Source: an uncultured Nocardioidaceae bacterium
GTDB lineage: Bacteria; Actinomycetota; Actinomycetes; Propionibacteriales; Nocardioidaceae
Assembly: GCA_902805855.1 (NCBI GenBank)
Contig: CADCUJ010000048.1
Coordinates: forward strand, 1 to 32,751
Length of the DNA: 32,751 nt
Direction: 5' to 3'
Within the stretch, counting starts at the first letter, position 1; the number at the start of each line of letters is the position of its first letter. Shown one piece after another: positions 14,444 through 23,925 of this stretch. Below the pieces are notes generated by a model. It was not told the origin of the DNA. It did no database searches and was given only the letters and a program-made list of their open reading frames with translations. Both the position numbers and the translations under genes were made by a program.

Positions 14444-15796
14444 ATGACCACGTGCCGGTTCATCCCGCCGTACCTCGTCCAGCAGATCGCCTCGGTACAA
14501 GACGACGCCGACCTGGCCCACCGGGGGCAGAGCACGCTCGCCATCGACGAGCAGCTGCGCAGGAGACGGCTCATCGGTCCGCCGAGGGTCGAGGCGGTGC
14601 CCGGGGCTGCGTCGCGGGACACCGGCGAGGACGCGTGGACGATCCACACCGCCTCGAACGGGACGTCGCTACCGGGTCGGCCGGTGCGGTCGGCCGGTGA
14701 AGACAAGTCCGGCGACGTCGTGGTGGACGAGGCGTACGCCGGCGTGGTCGCGTCCCTGGGGCTTTTCCGAGACGAGTACGGGCGATCGTCGTACGACGAC
14801 CGCGGAGCCCCGGTGGTCGCCACCGTGCATTACGAGCAGGAGTACGTCAACGCGTTCTGGGACGGGCGCCAGCTGGTCTTCGGCGACGGTGACGGCAAGC
14901 TCTTCGCGCGGTTCACCAAGCCGGTCGACGTGCTGGCGCACGAGTTCACGCACGCCGTCACCCAGCACACCTCCGGGTTCGTCTACGAGGGGCAGCCCGG
15001 AGCACTGAACGAGTCGATGTCCGACGTCTTCTCCGCGTGCGTGAAGCAGCGACTGATCGGCCAGTCTGCCGCCGAGGCCGACTGGCTGGTGGGCGAAGGC
15101 ATCTTCGCGCCGAGCGTGCAGGGCCGTGCGCTTCGATCGATGTCCGAGCCCGGCACCGCCTACGACGACCCCAAGGTCGGCCGGGACCGCCAGGTCGCGC
15201 ACCTCTCGGACTACGTGGACACCGCCGACGACAACGGGGGAGTGCACATCAACTCCGGCATCCCGAACCGGGCCTTCTACCTCGCCGCGACCGGCATCGG
15301 CGGCTCGTCGTGGGAGGTCACCGGCCGGATCTGGTACGCCGCACTCACCTCGGGCCTCGGCGCGGACGCAGACTTCGCTGCCTTCGCCGAGGCCACGGTG
15401 GCCGCCGCGGATGAGACCGGCGTGGACTCGGTGCGTGAGGCGGTCACCAATGCCTGGACCGAGGTCGGAGTGGAACCGGGTTCGCGCCGCAGCGATGCCG
15501 GTCGGCCCAGCAGACCTCGGCGACCACGTCGGCGGGTGGCGGTCCGCCGGTCCGGCGGGATCGCCGGGATGACCACGGCCGGCGAGGTCGACCTGGACAC
15601 CGATCCGCGCTCGGAGGAGGTGCGGCAGCTGGCCGAGCGCATCGACTTCGCCTCCCTTGCCGGCTCAACGGACCAGCCCGACCGGTACGTCTATGCCATC
15701 GACCTGGAGGAGGAGGAGTTCGTGGTCGGGGAGCAGGCGCTGACCCCGGAGCTGTCTCGCCTGGTCTCCCTGGTGCTCGACCAACCCCCCCGTTGA
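14444..15796 (+). CDS. M4 (protealysin-type) metallopeptidase fused to a C-terminal emfourin-like domain
   Basis: A 450-residue protein. Residues 1-50 resemble the short protealysin propeptide (CRFIPPYLVQQIA); there is no signal peptide, as in protealysins. The catalytic domain has NAFWDGRQLVFGDGDG, the zinc motif HEFTH at 166-170 with the downstream Glu in ALNESMSDVF, and VHINSGIPNRAFYL with the active-site His near 268. After an Arg/Pro-rich linker (about 345-360), residues 362-450 match the emfourin pattern: VAVRRSGGIAGM, an Asp/Glu-rich helix ending in RIDFASLA, DRYVYAIDL and a terminal helix LTPELSRLVSLVL. Emfourins are protein inhibitors of M4 peptidases, normally encoded next to the enzyme. 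Its stop codon is in the first 21-bp repeat. Confidence 0.88.
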   Translation: MTTCRFIPPYLVQQIASVQDDADLAHRGQSTLAIDEQLRRRRLIGPPRVEAVPGAASRDTGEDAWTIHTASNGTSLPGRPVRSAGEDKSGDVVVDEAYAGVVASLGLFRDEYGRSSYDDRGAPVVATVHYEQEYVNAFWDGRQLVFGDGDGKLFARFTKPVDVLAHEFTHAVTQHTSGFVYEGQPGALNESMSDVFSACVKQRLIGQSAAEADWLVGEGIFAPSVQGRALRSMSEPGTAYDDPKVGRDRQVAHLSDYVDTADDNGGVHINSGIPNRAFYLAATGIGGSSWEVTGRIWYAALTSGLGADADFAAFAEATVAAADETGVDSVREAVTNAWTEVGVEPGSRRSDAGRPSRPRRPRRRVAVRRSGGIAGMTTAGEVDLDTDPRSEEVRQLAERIDFASLAGSTDQPDRYVYAIDLEEEEFVVGEQALTPELSRLVSLVLDQPPR

Positions 15797-15872: not shown

Positions 15873-16619
15873 CTAGTCGAAGACTCGGTGCACCTTGTGC
15901 TGGGCCGCCTGCGCCCGCGGCCGGATCACCAGCTCGTCGACGTTGACGTGTGACGGCCTGGTGACCACCCAGCCGATGGCGTCTGCGATGTCCTCGGCGA
16001 CCAGCGGTTCGGCCACGCCGGCGTACACCTGATCCGCCTTCTCCTGGTCGCCACCGAACCGAACGAGCGAGAACTCCTCGGTGCGTACCATCCCCGGCGC
16101 GATCTCGGTGACCCGGACCGGCTGCCCGCACAGCTCGAGCCGCAGCGTCTCGGTGACCACCTGGGTCCCGTGCTTGGCGGCGGTGTATCCCGCGCCACCC
16201 TCGTAGGCAATCCGTCCGGCGGTGGACCCGAGGTTGACGATCACCGCGTCACCGCTCGCGATCAGCGCGGGAAGCAGAGCACGCGTCACGTTGAGCAGGC
16301 CGATCACGTTGACCTCGTACATCGCGCGCCAGTGCTTCGGGTCGGACTCGGCGACGGTCTCGGAGCCGACGGCCAAGCCGGCGTTGTTGACCAGCAGGTC
16401 CAGCCGGCTCCCCACCGCTGTGCGGAGCGCCTCGACAGACGCGGCGTCGGTGACGTCGCAGCGCACCGGCGTGCCACCGATCTCTTCGGCGAGAGCACGC
16501 ACGCGTTCGAACCGTCGCGCGGCGCAGAACACGTGGTACCCCTCGGCGGCGAGCCGGCCAGCGGTGGCCGCTCCGATCCCGCTGCTGGCTCCGGTGACGA
16601 CGGCGCTCTTGGTGGCCAT
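15873..16619 (-). CDS. Short-chain dehydrogenase/reductase (SDR family)
   Basis: A 248-residue classical SDR of unknown substrate. Cofactor loop TGASSGIG at 9-16; the second strand is followed by Arg residues (CAARRFERV), which favours NADP. NNAG at 78-81, catalytic Ser132, Tyr145 and Lys149 (YTAAKH), then IAPGMVRTEEFSLVRF. It resembles YdfG-like 3-hydroxy acid/serine dehydrogenases. ATG at 16619 is the preferred start; an in-frame ATG at 16628 adds three residues. The reading frame continues open upstream for kilobases antisense to other genes, which is an artefact of GC-rich sequence. Single gene, convergent with the peptidase, divergent from the iron-box gene. Confidence 0.88.
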   Translation of the reverse strand: MATKSAVVTGASSGIGAATAGRLAAEGYHVFCAARRFERVRALAEEIGGTPVRCDVTDAASVEALRTAVGSRLDLLVNNAGLAVGSETVAESDPKHWRAMYEVNVIGLLNVTRALLPALIASGDAVIVNLGSTAGRIAYEGGAGYTAAKHGTQVVTETLRLELCGQPVRVTEIAPGMVRTEEFSLVRFGGDQEKADQVYAGVAEPLVAEDIADAIGWVVTRPSHVNVDELVIRPRAQAAQHKVHRVFD

Positions 16620-16698
16620 GCCCCTCATCCTGCCCCGGGGGACGTCGCGCTGCGGCGGCTGGCCCGTGCGGGCACACGGCGCCGGCCTGCTCCCGCCG

Positions 16699-16727
16699 TT
16701 GCATAGGTAAGGCTTGCCTAATATCCT
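16699..16727 (+). promoter_or_regulatory. Promoter of the iron-regulated fusion gene
   Basis: -35 TTGCAT (16699-16704), 17-base spacer, -10 TATCCT (16722-16727), then 6 bases to the GTG at 16734. This is a near-ideal arrangement and implies a leaderless mRNA. The iron box fills the spacer. Confidence 0.7.
16703..16721. promoter_or_regulatory. Iron box (DtxR/IdeR operator)
   Basis: ATAGGTAAGGCTTGCCTAA matches the IdeR/DtxR consensus TTAGGTTAGGCTAACCTAA at 15 of 19 positions and is a good dyad. It overlaps the end of the -35 and the whole spacer, so iron-loaded repressor would block RNA polymerase. The gene should be expressed under iron limitation. Confidence 0.85.
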
Positions 16728-16733
16728 CGTCTG

Positions 16734-19283
16734 GTGCAGCAGGCCCTCACCGATACCGGCGTCTCCTTCGCGGCTCGGCTCTCCGCGTTCGGGGATCGGC
16801 CGGCTCTGGTGACCGCGGGCGCCGTGGTGAGCTATCAGGACCTGGCCGACCGCGTCGCAGCGACAGCCGACCGGCTCGGCACGACGCGGCGTCTGGTGCT
16901 GGTCGCCGGGACCAACGAGGTCCAAGCGATCGTGACGTACCTCGCGGCGCTGGCCGCGGGTCACCCGGTGATCTTGGTGCCCGGCGACAACCCCGGGAAC
17001 CTGAGCGAGCTGGTCTCGGCCTACAACCCGGACGTGACGTACTCCGCGGGCCGTCTCGTCGAGCGTCGCGCCGGCACCGCCCACGATCTGCATCCCGACC
17101 TGGCCCTGCTGCTCTCGACCTCCGGCTCCACCGGTTCGCCCAAGCTGGTGCGTCTTTCTGCGGCCAACGTCGAGTCCAACGCCGAGGCGATCGCGACGTA
17201 CCTTTCCATCCGGCCCTCCGACGTCGCCGCGACCACACTGCCGATGCACTACTGCTACGGGCTGTCGGTGATCAACAGCCACCTCATGAGCGGGGCGTCG
17301 CTGCTCCTCACCTCGCTCTCGGTGGTCGACGAGTGCTTCTGGGACCTCTTCAGGCGGAACCAGGCGACCACCTTCGCCGGCGTCCCGTACACCTTCGAGC
17401 TGCTCGACCGCGCGGGGTTCGCCGACCGCGACCTCCCCTCGCTCAGGTACGTCACCCAGGCCGGTGGCCGGATGTCGCCGACGACGGTGACCAGGTACGC
17501 CGAGCTGGGCCAGCGTCGCGGGTGGGACCTGTTCGTGATGTACGGCCAGACCGAGGCCACGGCGCGGATGGCCTACCTGCCCCCGGACCTGGCCCTCAGC
17601 TCGCCGTCCTCGATCGGCATCGCGATCCCGGGCGGCTCGTTCCGCCTCGAGCCGCTGCCGGAGATGCCGCTGACGAGGAACGCTGCCGTGCTCGACGAGC
17701 AGGCGACCGAGGTCGGCGAGCTGGTGTACTCCGGGGACAACGTGATGCTCGGGTACGCCACCTCTCCCGAGGACCTCGCCCGGGGTCGCGAGGTCACCAC
17801 CCTGCGGACCGGTGACGTCGCCAGGCGCAACCGCGAGGGGCTCTACGAGGTCATCGGCCGCCGCAACCGGTTCGCCAAGGTTTTCGGCCTGCGCATCGAC
17901 CTCGACCAGGCCGAGCGCGTGTTCGCCGACCACGGCATCACCGCCTGCTGCGCGGACGACGAGGAGCGGCTGGTGGTCGCCGTCGACTGCTCGGCCAAGC
18001 CCGTCGACGCCGACGCCGTGCAGGCCGTGGCGAAGCAGAGCTTCGGCGTCCCCCCGGGCGCGGTGCACGTCTCGGCCCTCACGCAGATCCCCCGGCTTCC
18101 GTCCGGCAAGCCGGACTACCGCGCCATCGTGTCGTCGGCCGCCGCGCCCGGTCGCGGCCGGCCGAGTGCGGTCTCCGCGACGGCGGACCTGTGCCGGCTG
18201 TACGGCGACGTACTGCGGCGCACCGAGGTGAGCGAGGACGACTCGTTCGTCAGCCTCGAGGGCGACTCGCTGTCCTACGTCGAGATGTCGATCCGGTTGG
18301 AGGAGGCCATCGGCCACCTCCCAGCGAACTGGCATCTCGCCCCGATCCGCGAGCTGACCCCTCGACGGCGACGCAGCGGCCTCCGCTCGGTCGAGGGGAA
18401 CGTGGTGCTCCGCGCCCTTGCCATCGTGCTGATCGTCGGCTCGCACGCCAACCTGTTCTGGCTGCTCGGGGGAGCACACGTGCTGCTCGGCCTCGCCGGC
18501 TACAACTTCGGACGCTTCCAGCTCACTGACGTGCCTCGCCGAGAACGTGTCCGTCGGCTGACGACGAGCATCGCCCGGGTCGCCGTGCCCTCGGTGCTCT
18601 GGATCGGGATCGCCGCCGCCTTCTCGGCCTACACCTGGCAGAACGCGGTCCTGCTCAACGGCATCCTGGGTCCGCGGGACTGGGCCGAGCCGCAGTGGCA
18701 CTACTGGTTCATCGAGGCGCTCGTCTACACGCTGGTGGCGCTGACACTGGTGATGGCCGTGCCTTTCGTGGACCGCATCGAGCGCAGGTGGCCGTTCTGG
18801 CTGCCGATGGCCCTCGCCGGAGCCGGGCTGTTGACCCGCTTCGAGGTGGTGACGGTGTTCGGTGGCGACGTGATCCACCGCGCGAACGTGCTCTTCTGGC
18901 TCTTCGCCCTCGGTTGGGCGACGGTGCGGGCCGAGGCATGGTGGCAGCGGCTGCTGGTGTCGGTGACGGTGGTCGCCACGGTGCCCGGCTTCTTCGACGA
19001 CCCTGCTCGCGACCTCGTGGTGATCGCGGGAATGCTTGCCCTGGTGTGGGTGCGCACCGTGCGTGTCCCCGGGTGGACCGCTCGGGTAGCCGGGGTGCTG
19101 GCGAGCGCCTCGCTCTACATCTACCTGGCGCACTGGCAGATCTACCCGCACCTCGAGGACAGCCAGCCCTTGCTCGCGACCGGTCTCTCGCTCCTTGGTG
19201 GAGTCCTCGTCTGGCAAGCGGTGAACCGGTGCTCGCCGTACGTCGAGAAGCGGTTGGCACGTCGCCTCGCCCGAACCGCCTGA
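16734..19283 (+). CDS. Adenylation domain - carrier domain - membrane acyltransferase fusion, iron-regulated
   Basis: An 849-residue three-part protein. Residues 1-475: AMP-forming adenylation domain with LLLSTSGSTGSPKLVRLS, MYGQTEATARM, GELVYSGDNVMLGY, LRTGDVARRNREGLYEVIGR and the A10 Lys in LPSGKPDYRAI. Residues about 480-545: carrier domain with phosphopantetheine Ser512 in EGDSLSYVEM. Residues about 553-840: polytopic acyltransferase-3-like domain, with the family's R-X10-H at Arg560/His571 and about ten helices. It should activate an acid, hold it as a thioester and transfer it to an acceptor at or across the membrane. Product unknown; iron control suggests siderophore or cell-surface modification. 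GTG start set by the leaderless promoter. Confidence 0.85.
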   Translation: MQQALTDTGVSFAARLSAFGDRPALVTAGAVVSYQDLADRVAATADRLGTTRRLVLVAGTNEVQAIVTYLAALAAGHPVILVPGDNPGNLSELVSAYNPDVTYSAGRLVERRAGTAHDLHPDLALLLSTSGSTGSPKLVRLSAANVESNAEAIATYLSIRPSDVAATTLPMHYCYGLSVINSHLMSGASLLLTSLSVVDECFWDLFRRNQATTFAGVPYTFELLDRAGFADRDLPSLRYVTQAGGRMSPTTVTRYAELGQRRGWDLFVMYGQTEATARMAYLPPDLALSSPSSIGIAIPGGSFRLEPLPEMPLTRNAAVLDEQATEVGELVYSGDNVMLGYATSPEDLARGREVTTLRTGDVARRNREGLYEVIGRRNRFAKVFGLRIDLDQAERVFADHGITACCADDEERLVVAVDCSAKPVDADAVQAVAKQSFGVPPGAVHVSALTQIPRLPSGKPDYRAIVSSAAAPGRGRPSAVSATADLCRLYGDVLRRTEVSEDDSFVSLEGDSLSYVEMSIRLEEAIGHLPANWHLAPIRELTPRRRRSGLRSVEGNVVLRALAIVLIVGSHANLFWLLGGAHVLLGLAGYNFGRFQLTDVPRRERVRRLTTSIARVAVPSVLWIGIAAAFSAYTWQNAVLLNGILGPRDWAEPQWHYWFIEALVYTLVALTLVMAVPFVDRIERRWPFWLPMALAGAGLLTRFEVVTVFGGDVIHRANVLFWLFALGWATVRAEAWWQRLLVSVTVVATVPGFFDDPARDLVVIAGMLALVWVRTVRVPGWTARVAGVLASASLYIYLAHWQIYPHLEDSQPLLATGLSLLGGVLVWQAVNRCSPYVEKRLARRLARTA

Positions 19284-19352: not shown

Positions 19353-20666
19353 GTGACCGCAGCTAGAAGGCCCGGCATTCTGCGACCGGTGCACGGCCGG
19401 ATCGCGATGATCAGCCTGCACACGTCCCCTCTGGACCAGCCCGGCACCGGCGACGCCGGCGGGATGAACGTTTACGTCAGCGAGCTGTCCAAGCGGCTGG
19501 CGCAGGACAACCTCGAGGTCGAGATCTTCACCCGAGCGACCTCCTCGGAGCTTCCTCCGGTCGTGGAGACCTCTCCGGGTGTGCGGGTGCGACATGTGCA
19601 CGCCGGTCCCTTCGAGGGTCTCAGCAAGGCCGAGCTTCCGGGGCAGCTGTGCGTGTTCGCCCGCGAGGTGCTGCGCGCCGAGGCGGCGCACACGCAGGGC
19701 TGGTACGACCTGGTGCACGCCCACTACTGGCTCTCGGGCCAGGTAGGCGCCCTGGTCCGGGACCGCTGGAGCGTGCCCTTCGTGCACTCGATGCACACGA
19801 TGGCGAAGGTCAAGAACGAGGCCCTCGCCGAAGGCGACACCCCGGAGCCGATGGCCCGGCTGATCGGCGAGGAGCAGGTCGTCGAGGCGGCCGACATGCT
19901 GATCGCGAGCACCGACATCGAGGCCAGGCAGCTGATAGATCGCTACGACGCCGATCCCGCACGGGTCGAGGTGGTGCCTCCCGGCGTGGACCTCTCGGTC
20001 TTCAAGCCGGTCGGGCAGCAGGTGGCCCGCGCTCGGCTCGGGCTGCCTGCCGACGCGCACGTGCTGCTGTTCGCCGGCCGGATCCAGCCGCTGAAGGCTC
20101 CAGACGTCCTGTTGCGCGCGGTGGCCGCACTGGTCACTCGGGATCCTTCGCTGCGCTCTCGCCTGGTGGTCCCCGTGGTGGGCGGCCCGTCCGGCACCGG
20201 CCTGGAGCATCCGGAGTCGCTCGCAGTGCTCGCCGCGTCCCTGGGCATCGAGGACGTGGTGCGGTTCGTACCTCCGGTGAGGCAGGAGGTACTCGCCGAC
20301 TGGTACGCCGCCGCCACGCTCGTGTGCGTCCCGTCCTACAACGAGTCCTTCGGCCTGGTCGCCGTGGAGGCACAGGCGGCTGGTACCCCGGTCGTGGCAG
20401 CAGCCGTCGGCGGGCTGACCACCGCCGTGCGTGACGGCGTGTCCGGGTTGTTGGTGGAGGGCCACGACCCCGACGCCTACGCGCAGGTCCTCGAGTCCGT
20501 GGTCAGCCAGCCGCAGCTTCGGGCCAGGCTCGCCGCAGGCGCACTCGAGCATGCAGCGACGTTCGACTGGGAGCACACCGCGGAGCGGACGGTCGCGGCC
20601 TACCGGCATGCCTCCTCCGCAATGCGACAGGAGCTGACGGCCGGGCTCGTGCAGGTGGGTCGATGA
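19353..20666 (+). CDS. mshA: D-inositol-3-phosphate glycosyltransferase (MshA)
   Basis: First enzyme of mycothiol synthesis: transfers GlcNAc from UDP-GlcNAc to 1L-myo-inositol 1-phosphate. A GT4-family GT-B glycosyltransferase of about 437 residues. Signatures: [20 protein letters not shown] near the N-terminus, [50 protein letters not shown] and the donor-site [23 protein letters not shown] at 19353 is 7 bases after GGGAGGAGG (19337-19345); GTG 19350 is the alternative. The stop overlaps the ybjN-type gene (ATGA), as in mycobacteria (Rv0486-Rv0487). It marks a mycothiol-producing actinobacterium. Confidence 0.97.
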
Positions 20667-21160
20667 CCGACCCGGGTGCTGCCGCCGAGACCCTGCGCCA
20701 GGTGTTCACCGAGCAGGCTCTGGAGTGGACGGAGCTCGATCCCGGCGTGTTCACCGTGGTACTTCCCGGCGAACGCAAGCTGCAGACGCCCTGTCGCTTC
20801 GACGTCGGCGCACATGCTCTAGCCGTGCACGCGTTCGTCGCCCGCCGGCCCGACGAGAACCACGAGCGGGTCTACCGATGGCTGCTCGAGCGCAACCTCA
20901 AGCTGTACGGGGTCGCGTTCGCCGTGGACCACACCGGAGACATCTACCTCGACGGCCGGTTGCCGCTGTCCGCGGTCACCCCGGCCGAGATCGACCGGCT
21001 GCTCGGCGCCGTACTCAGCTACTCCGACGAGTCGTTCAACACGATCCTCGAGCTCGGCTTCGCCTCCTCCATCCGGCGCGAGTGGGAGTGGCGCCGCTCG
21101 CGCGGAGAGTCCACCCGCAACCTGGACGCCTTCCGCGGATGGCTGGAGAAGCGGGGCTGA
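20663..21160 (+). CDS. YbjN domain-containing protein (Rv0487-like)
   Basis: A 165-residue protein of the YbjN / type III secretion chaperone-like fold. Recognisable stretches are [59 protein letters not shown] and [14 protein letters not shown]. Function unknown; a general chaperone- or regulator-like role has been suggested for the family. The ATG overlaps the mshA stop by four bases, an arrangement conserved across mycothiol producers, so its job may be tied to MshA or to nearby phosphate genes. No membrane segments or signal peptide. Confidence 0.88.
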
Positions 21161-21185
21161 CCGCCGCTGAGCCGGTGCAGGTGAG

Positions 21186-21866
21186 CTAGGCGTCGAACTT
21201 GTAGCCGAGGCCGCGGACGGTGACCAGGTAGGACGGTGAGGCCGGGTCGGGCTCGAGCTTGGTCCGCAGCCGCTTCACGTGTACGTCGAGCGTCTTGGTG
21301 TCGCCGACGTAGTCCGAGCCCCACACGCGGTCGATGAGCTGTCCACGGGTGAGCACCCGGCCGGTGTTGCGAAGGAACATCTCCAGCAGCTCGAACTCCT
21401 TGAGCGGCAGCTTGGTGGTCACTCCGTCGACGGTCACCACGTGCCGGTCGACGTCCATCCGGACGGGTCCGGCCTCGAGAGCCGCCGGCTCCAGGTCCGT
21501 GGCTTCAGAGCCGCGGCGCAGCACCGCGCGAACCCGGGCCACCAGCTCGCGAGGCGAGTACGGCTTGGTGACGTAGTCGTCGGCGCCCAGCTCGAGCCCG
21601 ACCACCTTGTCCACCTCGTCGTCCTTGGCGCTGACCATGATCACCGGCACGTTGGACGTGCTGCGGATCTGCCGACACACCTCGGTGCCCGGGAGTCCCG
21701 GGAGCATCAGATCGAGCAGCACGATGTCGGCACCGTTGCGCTCGAACTCCGTCAGCGCGTCTGGTCCGGTGGCCGCGACCGCGACCTCGAAGCCTTCCTT
21801 GCCCAGCATGTACGCGAGCGCGTCGCTGTAGCTCTCCTCGTCCTCGACCACGAGCACCCGGGTCAA
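21186..21866 (-). CDS. regX3: Response regulator RegX3/PhoP (OmpR family)
   Basis: A 226-residue two-component regulator for phosphate starvation. The receiver domain has phospho-acceptor Asp52 (VLLDLMLPG), the acidic pair in VVEDEES and Lys in VTKPYSPREL. The OmpR-type winged helix follows (LPLKEFELLEMFLRNTGRVL, then VWGSDYVGDTKTLDVHVKRL). The start is an uncommon TTG at 21866, overlapping the senX3 TGA (TTGA), with AGGAGG 7 bases upstream. Called RegX3 in mycobacteria and PhoP in Streptomyces. It is expected to bind the 11-nt repeats at 23212-23255. Confidence 0.95.
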   Translation of the reverse strand: MTRVLVVEDEESYSDALAYMLGKEGFEVAVAATGPDALTEFERNGADIVLLDLMLPGLPGTEVCRQIRSTSNVPVIMVSAKDDEVDKVVGLELGADDYVTKPYSPRELVARVRAVLRRGSEATDLEPAALEAGPVRMDVDRHVVTVDGVTTKLPLKEFELLEMFLRNTGRVLTRGQLIDRVWGSDYVGDTKTLDVHVKRLRTKLEPDPASPSYLVTVRGLGYKFDA

Positions 21867-23140
21867 CGTGTGGCCTCCTGGTTGTGCGACTCGACCGTCG
21901 GCACCGGCGGCGCCACGGGTGGTGTGGGGGCAGCCTCAGCGGCTGGGCCGTCGCTGGTCTCGGCGGTCTCGGTGGTCCCGGTGGTGTCGGTGACGGGTGC
22001 GGCCGCCAGCTCGCGCCGTACCTCTTCCAGGCTGCGCCGCGGCAGCGTCATGGTGAACGAGGAACCACTGCCCTCCACCGACCACACCCGCACCTCACCG
22101 CCGTGCGAAGCCGCGACGTGCTTCACGATCGACAGGCCCAGGCCGGTGCCCCCGGTGGAGCGGTGGCGGGCCGGGTCCACGCGGTAGAAGCGCTCGAAGA
22201 TCCGGTCGATCTCCTGCGCCGGGATGCCGATCCCCTGGTCGGTGACGGTGATGCTCACCGTCTCGTCGGTTGCCTTGGTGCCGACCACCACCCGGGAGTG
22301 CTCCGGCGAGTAGGCGACCGCATTCGCGACGAGGTTGCCGACCGCCATCGCCACCTGGTCACCGTTCCCATAGAGGTGGGCGCCGTTCGTCCCGTCGCGC
22401 ACCACCTCGATGCCCTTGGTCTGAGCATCGATCGCGGACTGGTCGATCGCGAGATCGATGACCTCTTCGACCGAGACCGGCTGCGGCGCGTCGAGCGGGT
22501 CGTCACCTTGCAGCCGCGAGAGCGCGATGATCTGCTGCACAAGTCGAGACAGCCGCTCGGTCTCGGTCTGCATCCTGCCGGCGAACCTCTGCACCGCCTC
22601 GGGGTCCTCGGCTGCCTCCGCGACAGCCTCCGCGAGCAGGTTGATCGCCCCGACTGGTGTCTTCAGCTCGTGCGAGACGTTAGCCACGAAGTCACGCCGG
22701 ATCGCCTCGACCCTGCGTTCGCGGGTGCGGTCCTCGACGAGGGCGAGCACCAGCCGAGAGCTCAACGGCGCCACCCGGGCGGTGACGTGCTGGGCGGCTC
22801 GCCCGCGCGGCAGCACGAACTCCGTCTCCCGGATCTGCCCGTCACGGCGAACCGCTCTCACCAGGTCGCCCAGCTCGTCGACGCAGATCTGCTTGCCGCG
22901 TACCACCCCGAGGGAGTAGGCCGGTGCGGACGCCTTGAGCACCTCGTCGTTCTCGTTCACCACCAGCGCGCTGGAACGCAGCACCGACAGCACGGTGGCC
23001 ACCCCGATGGGCACCAGCGGCTCCTCCAGCACGGGCAGCCGCTGCTGCTGGTGCTCGCTGAAGCGCCAGGCGAAAACGACGCCCGCTCCGAGGGCAGCGC
23101 CCAGCAGCGCGAACAGCAGCGCCTGGGTCGTCGCATCCAC
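21863..23140 (-). CDS. senX3: Sensor histidine kinase SenX3/PhoR
   Basis: A 425-residue membrane sensor kinase that phosphorylates RegX3. A single N-terminal helix (LLFALLGAALGAGVVFAW, residues 8-25) is followed by a PAS-like region (40-135), then HisKA with phospho-His157 in ANVSHELKTPVGAINLL, and HATPase motifs NLVANAVAYSP (N box), TDQGIGIP (G1) and GTGLGLSIVKH (G2). The Ala/Thr/Pro-rich C-terminal tail (about 40 residues) is outside the catalytic core. GTG at 23140 is preceded by a minus-strand TACGAT -10 at 7 bases. PhoU, encoded divergently, normally restrains this type of kinase when phosphate is plentiful. Confidence 0.95.
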   Translation of the reverse strand: MDATTQALLFALLGAALGAGVVFAWRFSEHQQQRLPVLEEPLVPIGVATVLSVLRSSALVVNENDEVLKASAPAYSLGVVRGKQICVDELGDLVRAVRRDGQIRETEFVLPRGRAAQHVTARVAPLSSRLVLALVEDRTRERRVEAIRRDFVANVSHELKTPVGAINLLAEAVAEAAEDPEAVQRFAGRMQTETERLSRLVQQIIALSRLQGDDPLDAPQPVSVEEVIDLAIDQSAIDAQTKGIEVVRDGTNGAHLYGNGDQVAMAVGNLVANAVAYSPEHSRVVVGTKATDETVSITVTDQGIGIPAQEIDRIFERFYRVDPARHRSTGGTGLGLSIVKHVAASHGGEVRVWSVEGSGSSFTMTLPRRSLEEVRRELAAAPVTDTTGTTETAETSDGPAAEAAPTPPVAPPVPTVESHNQEATR

Positions 23141-23147
23141 AACCTCG

Positions 23148-23153
23148 ATCGTA
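23148..23153 (-). promoter_or_regulatory. -10 element TACGAT for senX3-regX3
   Basis: On the minus strand TACGAT ends 7 bases before the GTG at 23140. GAGG also occurs inside the spacer, so either a leaderless or a short-leader start is possible. Confidence 0.4.
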
Positions 23154-23211
23154 CGGCGCCCGGCGCCGGTGTCCCGGTCTGGCGTGCGCCTGACCTGCTG
23201 TTTCGGCGACT

Positions 23212-23255
23212 GTTCACTAACCGTTAACGCGGCGTCGCCATCTGGTCACCTCGCC
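23212..23255 (+). promoter_or_regulatory. PHO box-like 11-nt direct repeats
   Basis: Consecutive 11-base units GTTCACTAACC (23212), GTTAACGCGGC (23223) and a weaker GTCGCCATCTG (23234), followed by GGTCACCTCGC (23244). The first, second and last fit the actinobacterial PhoP consensus G(G/T)TCAYYYRSG well. The array ends 4-5 bases before the phoU -10 and covers its missing -35, the position expected for an activator. Confidence 0.7.
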
Positions 23256-23259
23256 GTCG

Positions 23260-23265
23260 TACCGT
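23260..23265 (+). promoter_or_regulatory. -10 element TACCGT for phoU
   Basis: TACCGT ends 6 bases before the ATG at 23272. No -35 match lies 17 bases upstream, consistent with activation from the PHO box. Confidence 0.55.
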
Positions 23266-23271
23266 TTTGGC

Positions 23272-23925
23272 ATGCGGGACCTCTACCACGATCAGCTCGA
23301 CACCATCGTCGACGACCTGGTTGCCATGACCCACTCGGTCAAGCACGCGGTGAGCCAGGCCACGACGGCACTCCTGACCGCGGACGCCGAGGTCGCCGAG
23401 CGGGTGATCTCCGACGACGCGGCAATCGACTCTGCAAGGGAGCAGATCGAGGAGCGCAGCTTCGAGATGCTGGCGCTGCAGCAGCCGGTCGCCGGCGACC
23501 TGCGGATGCTGGTTGCTGCGCTCCGGATGGTGGCCGACCTGGAGCGGATGGGCGACCTGTCGGTGCACGTGGCGAAGGTGGCCCGGCTACGGCTGCCCGC
23601 CGTCGCGGTTCCGGCCGAGCTACGACCCACGATCGCCCGGATGGCCGAGGTGGCCGAGTCGATGGTCGAGTCGGTGGCCCAGATCATCGCCGACCGCGAC
23701 ATCGAGGCCGCCCAGGCCCTCGAGCGGGCTGACGACGAGATGGACCAGCTGCGCCGCTCGTCGTTCCGCTTCATGCTCAGCGACGACTGGCCCTACGGGA
23801 TCGAACCGGCGGTCGACCTCGCGCTGCTGGGCCGCTACTACGAGCGGATCGCCGACCACACCGTCTCCCTGGCCCGACGGGTGGTCTTCCTCGTCACCGG
23901 TCAGACCCACACCGTCGAAGCCTGA
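23272..23925 (+). CDS. phoU: Phosphate signalling protein PhoU
   Basis: A 217-residue all-helical protein made of two PhoU three-helix repeats. The repeats are seen as two related segments, one around EEQIEERSFEMLALQQPVAG with LRMLVAALRMVADLERMGDL, the other around ALERADDEMDQLRRSSFRFM with DLALLGRYYERIADHTVSLA. The DxERMGDL / YYERIADH acidic motifs bind metal clusters in the family. PhoU links the Pst transporter to the sensor kinase and keeps the phosphate regulon off under high phosphate; it also affects persistence. It is divergent from senX3-regX3, as in Streptomyces. ATG at 23272 fits the -10 spacing. Confidence 0.96.
   Translation: MRDLYHDQLDTIVDDLVAMTHSVKHAVSQATTALLTADAEVAERVISDDAAIDSAREQIEERSFEMLALQQPVAGDLRMLVAALRMVADLERMGDLSVHVAKVARLRLPAVAVPAELRPTIARMAEVAESMVESVAQIIADRDIEAAQALERADDEMDQLRRSSFRFMLSDDWPYGIEPAVDLALLGRYYERIADHTVSLARRVVFLVTGQTHTVEA

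Follow-up and report, generated by a model that had tools for sequence, protein, structure and literature searches.

Iron scavenging in bacteria is commonly attributed either to sizeable siderophore pathways or to importers of bare Fe3+. In M. smegmatis, the SfuABC-type operon MSMEG_3633-36 is required for growth at low iron if siderophores are lacking (PMC6684656). Acyl transfer to the outer face of the membrane is carried out by other described systems, among them Dlt and the membrane acyltransferases of the AT3/TmAT family. The reviewed AT3 enzymes are believed to take acyl-CoA, with CoA favoured over ACP as donor in one review (PMC9558356); in published models of AT3 proteins, the pantetheine arm reaches across the membrane with its thioester (PMC9833829, PMC12423673). 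Here we describe an actinobacterial gene in which an adenylation domain, a carrier domain and an AT3 domain are fused (A-PCP-AT3) and which is probably part of a minimal pathway of iron scavenging that has yet to be described. We assign it to such a pathway because an apparent iron switch and a pairing with a ferric-iron importer are found across many actinobacteria. The gene lies in a 32,751-nucleotide stretch of DNA from an uncultured Nocardioidaceae bacterium, referred to here as the window; its features are listed in Table 1.

Table 1. Features of the A-PCP-AT3 locus (positions refer to the window)
Feature	Position	Strand	Basis or remark
A-PCP-AT3 fusion protein, 849 aa, GTG start	16734..19283	+	ORF call, Pfam, homologues
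Adenylation domain, residues 1-471	16734..18146	+	PF00501; fold match to ANL ligases; pocket conservation
Predicted pocket residues C174 Y175 S178 T220 T241 A243 M269 A277 R278 K459			PheA positions 235/236/239/278/299/301/322/330/331/517
Carrier domain, residues about 479-528	18168..18317	+	PF00550; conserved G510, S512
Predicted phosphopantetheine site Ser512	codon 18267-18269	+	G-D-S-L motif
AT3/TmAT acyltransferase domain, residues 546-849, ~10 predicted TMH	18369..19283	+	PF01757; model; motifs
Predicted DmdR/IdeR iron box ATAGGTAAGGCTTGCCTAA	16703..16721	+	15/19 vs palindromic consensus
Short-chain dehydrogenase (SDR), divergent	15873..16628	-	neighbour kept in mshA-linked subclade only
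mshA, mycothiol glycosyltransferase, downstream	19389..20666	+	TIGR03449 631 bits, cut-off 462

The open reading frame had the highest codon score in the window (237). Fifty-three full-length homologues aligned with it end to end at 38-73% identity; the gene is present in Nocardioides and Micromonospora, in arthrobacters and probable mycobacteria, and in several MAGs. The first-pass annotation had read one chain as an adenylation domain followed by a carrier (Ser512) and an acyltransferase-3-like membrane domain (R-X10-H, here R560-X10-H571); Pfam, alignment and fold all agreed with this assignment, and the same domain order was found in the other genomes, where the three domains stay fused across the full-length family. 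The AlphaFold2 model of the whole protein had a mean pLDDT of 89.9. In one Nocardiaceae MAG, two diverged copies of the gene lie in tandem without a recognisable iron box (L016:4924-10191).

The adenylation domain matched PF00501 (AMP-binding) at 143.6 bits (cut-off, 29.9) and aligned with ANL ligases at a VIA-align Z of about 35-37. Its P-loop residues T129-S130-G131 and T133-G134 (TSGSTG) and the A10 lysine K459 were invariant among the 53 homologues, as befits an ANL domain. The carrier domain matched PF00550 (PP-binding) at 20.7 bits, 0.1 bit under the cut-off of 20.8. Ser512 of the G-D-S-L motif was nevertheless invariant (53/53), as was G510, with the G510-D511-S512 triplet invariant or nearly so, and helices typical of a carrier protein were present in the structure model at residues 479-494 and 512-526. 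The predicted phosphopantetheine site sits 48 residues ahead of R560, and the host genome contains one match to a 4'-phosphopantetheinyl transferase (PF01648, 51.1 bits).

The membrane domain matched PF01757 (Acyl_transf_3) at 36.0 bits (cut-off, 31), rising to 40.3 bits when this domain was scanned alone. The R560-X10-H571 motif on TMH1 was invariant in all 53 homologues. S793 of the SxxxY motif on TMH9, whose Y797 was kept in 38/42, and the glycine of TMH6 (G727) were invariant as well. The RxxR motif on TMH3 was partly kept (R602 in 26/42, R605 in 38/42 and R607 in 35/42). Judged by eye against the described AT3 motifs (PMC12423673), the domain deviates in two respects: the Asp of DxxR on TMH1 is missing, and the Phe of FxxxxG on TMH2 is an invariant Leu. 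Since a fold search with the full-length model returned adenylation enzymes only, residues 546-849 were modelled separately (AlphaFold2; pLDDT 94.1, pTM 0.90). This model aligned with HGSNAT over 257 residues at 4.7 A with a VIA-align Z of 14.2, whereas unrelated chains scored near 5; the published structural agreement between OafB and HGSNAT has a Z of 13.2 (PMC12423673). Foldseek alone gave HGSNAT only at an E value of 0.24 for the membrane domain. The absence of an AT3 fold from residues 553-840 had been named beforehand as the result that would overturn the first reading, and the match to HGSNAT shows that the fold is there and that the acyltransferase identification was right. The accompanying proposal of a Dlt-like logic of activation, carrier loading and membrane transfer holds in its domain order and key residues, and the transferase indeed differs in family from DltB: it has the AT3/TmAT fold, and MBOAT was absent among its Pfam matches.

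In amino-acid adenylation domains, an Asp at PheA position 235 binds the alpha-amine of the substrate. Pocket positions were mapped by hand from an HMMER alignment to LgrA and the PheA numbering, and by this mapping position 235 was Cys174 in 51 of the 53 homologues and Ser in the other two, with no Asp. The substrate is probably not an ordinary alpha-amino acid, and a D-alanine-like substrate is unlikely because the amine-anchoring Asp of DltA-type domains is replaced by Cys174. The pocket code C-Y-S-T-T-A-M-A-R-K was near-invariant over the 53 homologues, which suggests that the pocket serves one conserved substrate; we know of no counterpart to it among described codes. The invariant Arg278 was considered as proof of a dicarboxylate substrate, and this argument was dropped, as the residue also occurs in stand-alone adenylation relatives. 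These relatives (L102 and L103) are 45-50% identical over the matched part and have the pocket S Y S x T A M A R K. Their loci encode a free ACP, a ketoreductase, LuxE, LuxC and a hexapeptide transferase and resemble polysaccharide loci; they perhaps represent an acyl-sugar route with acyl reduction.

The predicted iron box was scored against the palindromic IdeR/DmdR consensus TTAGGTTAGGCTAACCTAA. It ends 12 bp upstream of the GTG codon and overlaps a possible -10 hexamer, TAATAT (16719-16724), and the transcript may be leaderless or nearly so. In 1.34 Mb of homologous loci, almost all sites matching at least 14 of the 19 positions lay directly before the A-PCP-AT3 gene or fbpA. Such a site was found upstream of 22 of the 32 homologues without a local fbpA, against none of the 707 other genes from these loci (Fisher p 8e-35, a value that overstates independence because the homologues are related). 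No recognisable box was present at the divergent homologues L015, L016, L092 and L097. The iron regulon of the host was surveyed by pattern search in its 2.64-Mb genome, a draft of 113 contigs that is 97.9% complete. Only two sites had at most two mismatches: the box before the A-PCP-AT3 gene, which was the sole site genome-wide without a mismatch to the degenerate pattern, and one with a single mismatch before an ABC importer of the ferric-iron type, complete with binding protein, permease and ATPase, on another contig (C43). As a control, the reversed pattern was searched and gave no match in the host genome. The host thus carries both a predicted 19-bp promoter box and a gene for a DtxR-family repressor, the sequence elements expected of an IdeR/DmdR regulon. 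By computation, the iron link of the A-PCP-AT3 gene is well supported.

The importer, which is the only other strong iron-box unit in the host genome, belongs to a type that recurs beside the gene elsewhere. About half of the homologous loci, from several lineages, have an SfuABC/FbpABC importer adjoining A-PCP-AT3, and the Nocardioides binding protein matched the solved YfuA and SfuA at E values of about 1e-100. At least three arrangements were seen, with the importer ahead on the same strand, divergent, or behind or around the gene. The first of these occurs in Nocardioides, in others and in three genomes that are mycobacteria-like by their neighbours, and in several of these operons (e.g., L027, L091 and L093) fbpC and the A-PCP-AT3 gene overlap by 4 bp. 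On a FastTree phylogeny with some weak branches, independent changes of arrangement numbered two for importer-then-gene, three for divergent and three for gene-then-importer. In two probable mycobacterial genomes (L091 and L093), the A-PCP-AT3 gene is the fourth, overlapping gene of an SfuABC operon, possibly related to MSMEG_3633-36; a literature search on the genes that flank MSMEG_3633 in M. smegmatis gave nothing. In Nocardioides only (L017-L027), acyl-CoA carboxylase genes of the biotin carboxylase type lie behind the importer/A-PCP-AT3 operon, and a divergent acyl-CoA dehydrogenase gene lies ahead of it.

Within the window, the A-PCP-AT3 gene sits between the SDR gene and mshA, as it does throughout the window's subclade. 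These two neighbours were considered as partners and rejected, because their synteny is confined to that subclade whereas the importer link recurs across the tree. Positions 19389-23925 hold mshA, a YbjN-family gene, a RegX3/SenX3-like pair and a PhoU-like gene in an order shared with several relatives. On the other side (14444-15796) lies a gene for an M4 (thermolysin-type) metallopeptidase with a C-terminal emfourin domain; the emfourin family is known as separate inhibitors of M4-type proteases. A profile search found no IucA/IucC (NIS) siderophore synthetase in the host genome, and no FecCD siderophore permease scored above the cut-off there. Among 58 relatives, NIS synthetases were present in 4 of 27 genomes with the A-PCP-AT3 gene versus 14 of 31 without it (p 0.02). 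This anti-association was not significant within the family, so a substitution of the A-PCP-AT3 system for classical siderophores is only suggested.

We propose that A-PCP-AT3 acts during iron starvation, loading an acyl group and exporting it so that an Fe(III) ligand is formed, a reading that stands at about an even chance of being correct. Under low iron, a DtxR/IdeR-family repressor would leave the predicted box, and the gene and the SfuABC/FbpABC importer would be transcribed. The adenylation domain would activate one specific small carboxylic acid, probably a non-alpha-amino one, which would be thioesterified to the phosphopantetheine arm on Ser512. We infer that the carrier replaces CoA as donor for the AT3 domain: the tethered arm, not acyl-CoA, would enter the AT3 pore from the cytosol, and its thioester would reach His571 near the outer face. 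The acyl group would then pass to an extracytoplasmic acceptor, and the product, a small Fe(III) ligand that is either secreted or bound to the surface, would keep ferric iron available to the SfuA/FbpA lipoprotein. No chelator-precursor, exporter or acceptor gene is conserved beside the A-PCP-AT3 gene, and the chelating product is therefore a guess. Furthermore, a dedicated ligand is not strictly required, since importers of the SfuABC type are generally regarded as carriers of bare Fe3+.

The chief rival to this proposal is a Dlt-like modification of the envelope under iron control, in which a wall polymer, a glycolipid or a glycan at the surface would receive the acyl group, with a change in surface charge or metal binding and no soluble ligand. 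For most of the characterised AT3 enzymes, the acceptor is a surface carbohydrate (PMC9558356), and the stand-alone adenylation relatives lie in polysaccharide-like loci, both in keeping with such a role. However, the pocket lacks the DltA-type Asp, no conserved polymer gene was present in any A-PCP-AT3 neighbourhood, and no specific link of the gene to a wall polymer or lipid was seen. Co-location with the importer fits either explanation, but exclusive co-regulation with it would not be expected of a general envelope change and favours a direct role in iron capture. We accordingly consider envelope modification unlikely, although it comes nearest to the ligand proposal. An iron-induced acylation in support of the importer, with a membrane lipid or the lipoprotein SfuA/FbpA as its target, for example, would explain the conserved co-location with a lipoprotein-type binding protein, and the ligase matches include acyl-ACP/phospholipid acyltransferases. 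These matches fell far below their cut-offs and reflect just the common ligase fold. SfuABC systems elsewhere function without an A-PCP-AT3-type gene, so general lipoprotein maturation does not need one, and we judge this explanation improbable.

Slightly less credible again is a role in which the adenylation-carrier part feeds an unlinked enzyme, with the AT3 domain serving as an anchor or doing a separate job. Adenylation-carrier units often hand over in trans, but the catalytic residues R560, H571, G727 and S793 are invariant and the three domains remain fused throughout the full-length family, neither of which fits a mere anchor. The first-pass annotation had suggested that the gene may be a complete stand-alone module. 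Taken as a self-contained acyl exporter unrelated to iron, it would make the boxes and importer neighbours coincidental. No iron gene is adjacent within the window, as this interpretation would have it; the iron-box statistics, the operator type common to the gene and the host importer, and the adjacency of SfuABC-type importers in many relatives speak against it, and we regard it as very improbable.

A single membrane enzyme that makes an outer-face Fe(III) ligand from a common metabolite, together with SfuABC, would amount to a new minimal metallophore class, a step beyond the proposal itself that we put forward tentatively and lean somewhat against. In that case, this system would form the core of iron-regulated scavenging in small actinobacterial genomes without classical siderophore genes, and its enzyme would be the first AT3 member known to use its own carrier protein rather than acyl-CoA. 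Rules for siderophore gene clusters may overlook a pathway of this kind, which would consist of a one-gene enzyme for activation and export under predicted iron control and would suggest what partners SfuABC importers. The fusion also raises the question of whether a tethered carrier can serve AT3 enzymes as donor.

Each domain of the protein is of a known kind, while we know of no precedent for the fusion or for its apparent role; in the open-access literature searched, neither an A-PCP-AT3 fusion nor an AT3 enzyme with a link to iron was described, which is not proof of novelty. With the AT3/TmAT enzymes OafB, OatA and HGSNAT, the membrane domain shares the 10-helix fold, R-X10-H, SxxxY and the TMH6 glycine, as well as a route across the membrane by which the donor thioester would meet an acceptor on the outside (PMC9833829, PMC12423673). 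It differs from them in its altered DxxR and FxxxxG motifs and in its fused activating and carrier domains, whereas the known members use acyl-CoA, and the fusions covered by the review carry SGNH or racemase domains (PMC9558356). The Dlt system (DltA, DltC, DltB and DltD) likewise proceeds from ATP activation through a carrier to outward membrane transfer; here, by contrast, a single polypeptide with an AT3 rather than an MBOAT transferase, a pocket without the amine-anchoring Asp and predicted iron-box control are found, and no DltD-like gene was recognised beside it. The importer paired with the gene belongs to the SfuABC/FbpABC family (YfuA, SfuA; MSMEG_3633-36), but descriptions of the known systems include no enzyme dedicated to acyl transfer. 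The stand-alone ANL proteins have a closely related adenylation domain and a similar pocket, but they occur beside a separate ACP, without an AT3 domain, and no iron link was seen for them. Finally, the DmdR1-controlled siderophore loci of Streptomyces (desABCD and desJGH) share iron-box control of biosynthetic genes (PMC12161575), with a hydroxamate NIS pathway there and one NRPS-like membrane enzyme here.
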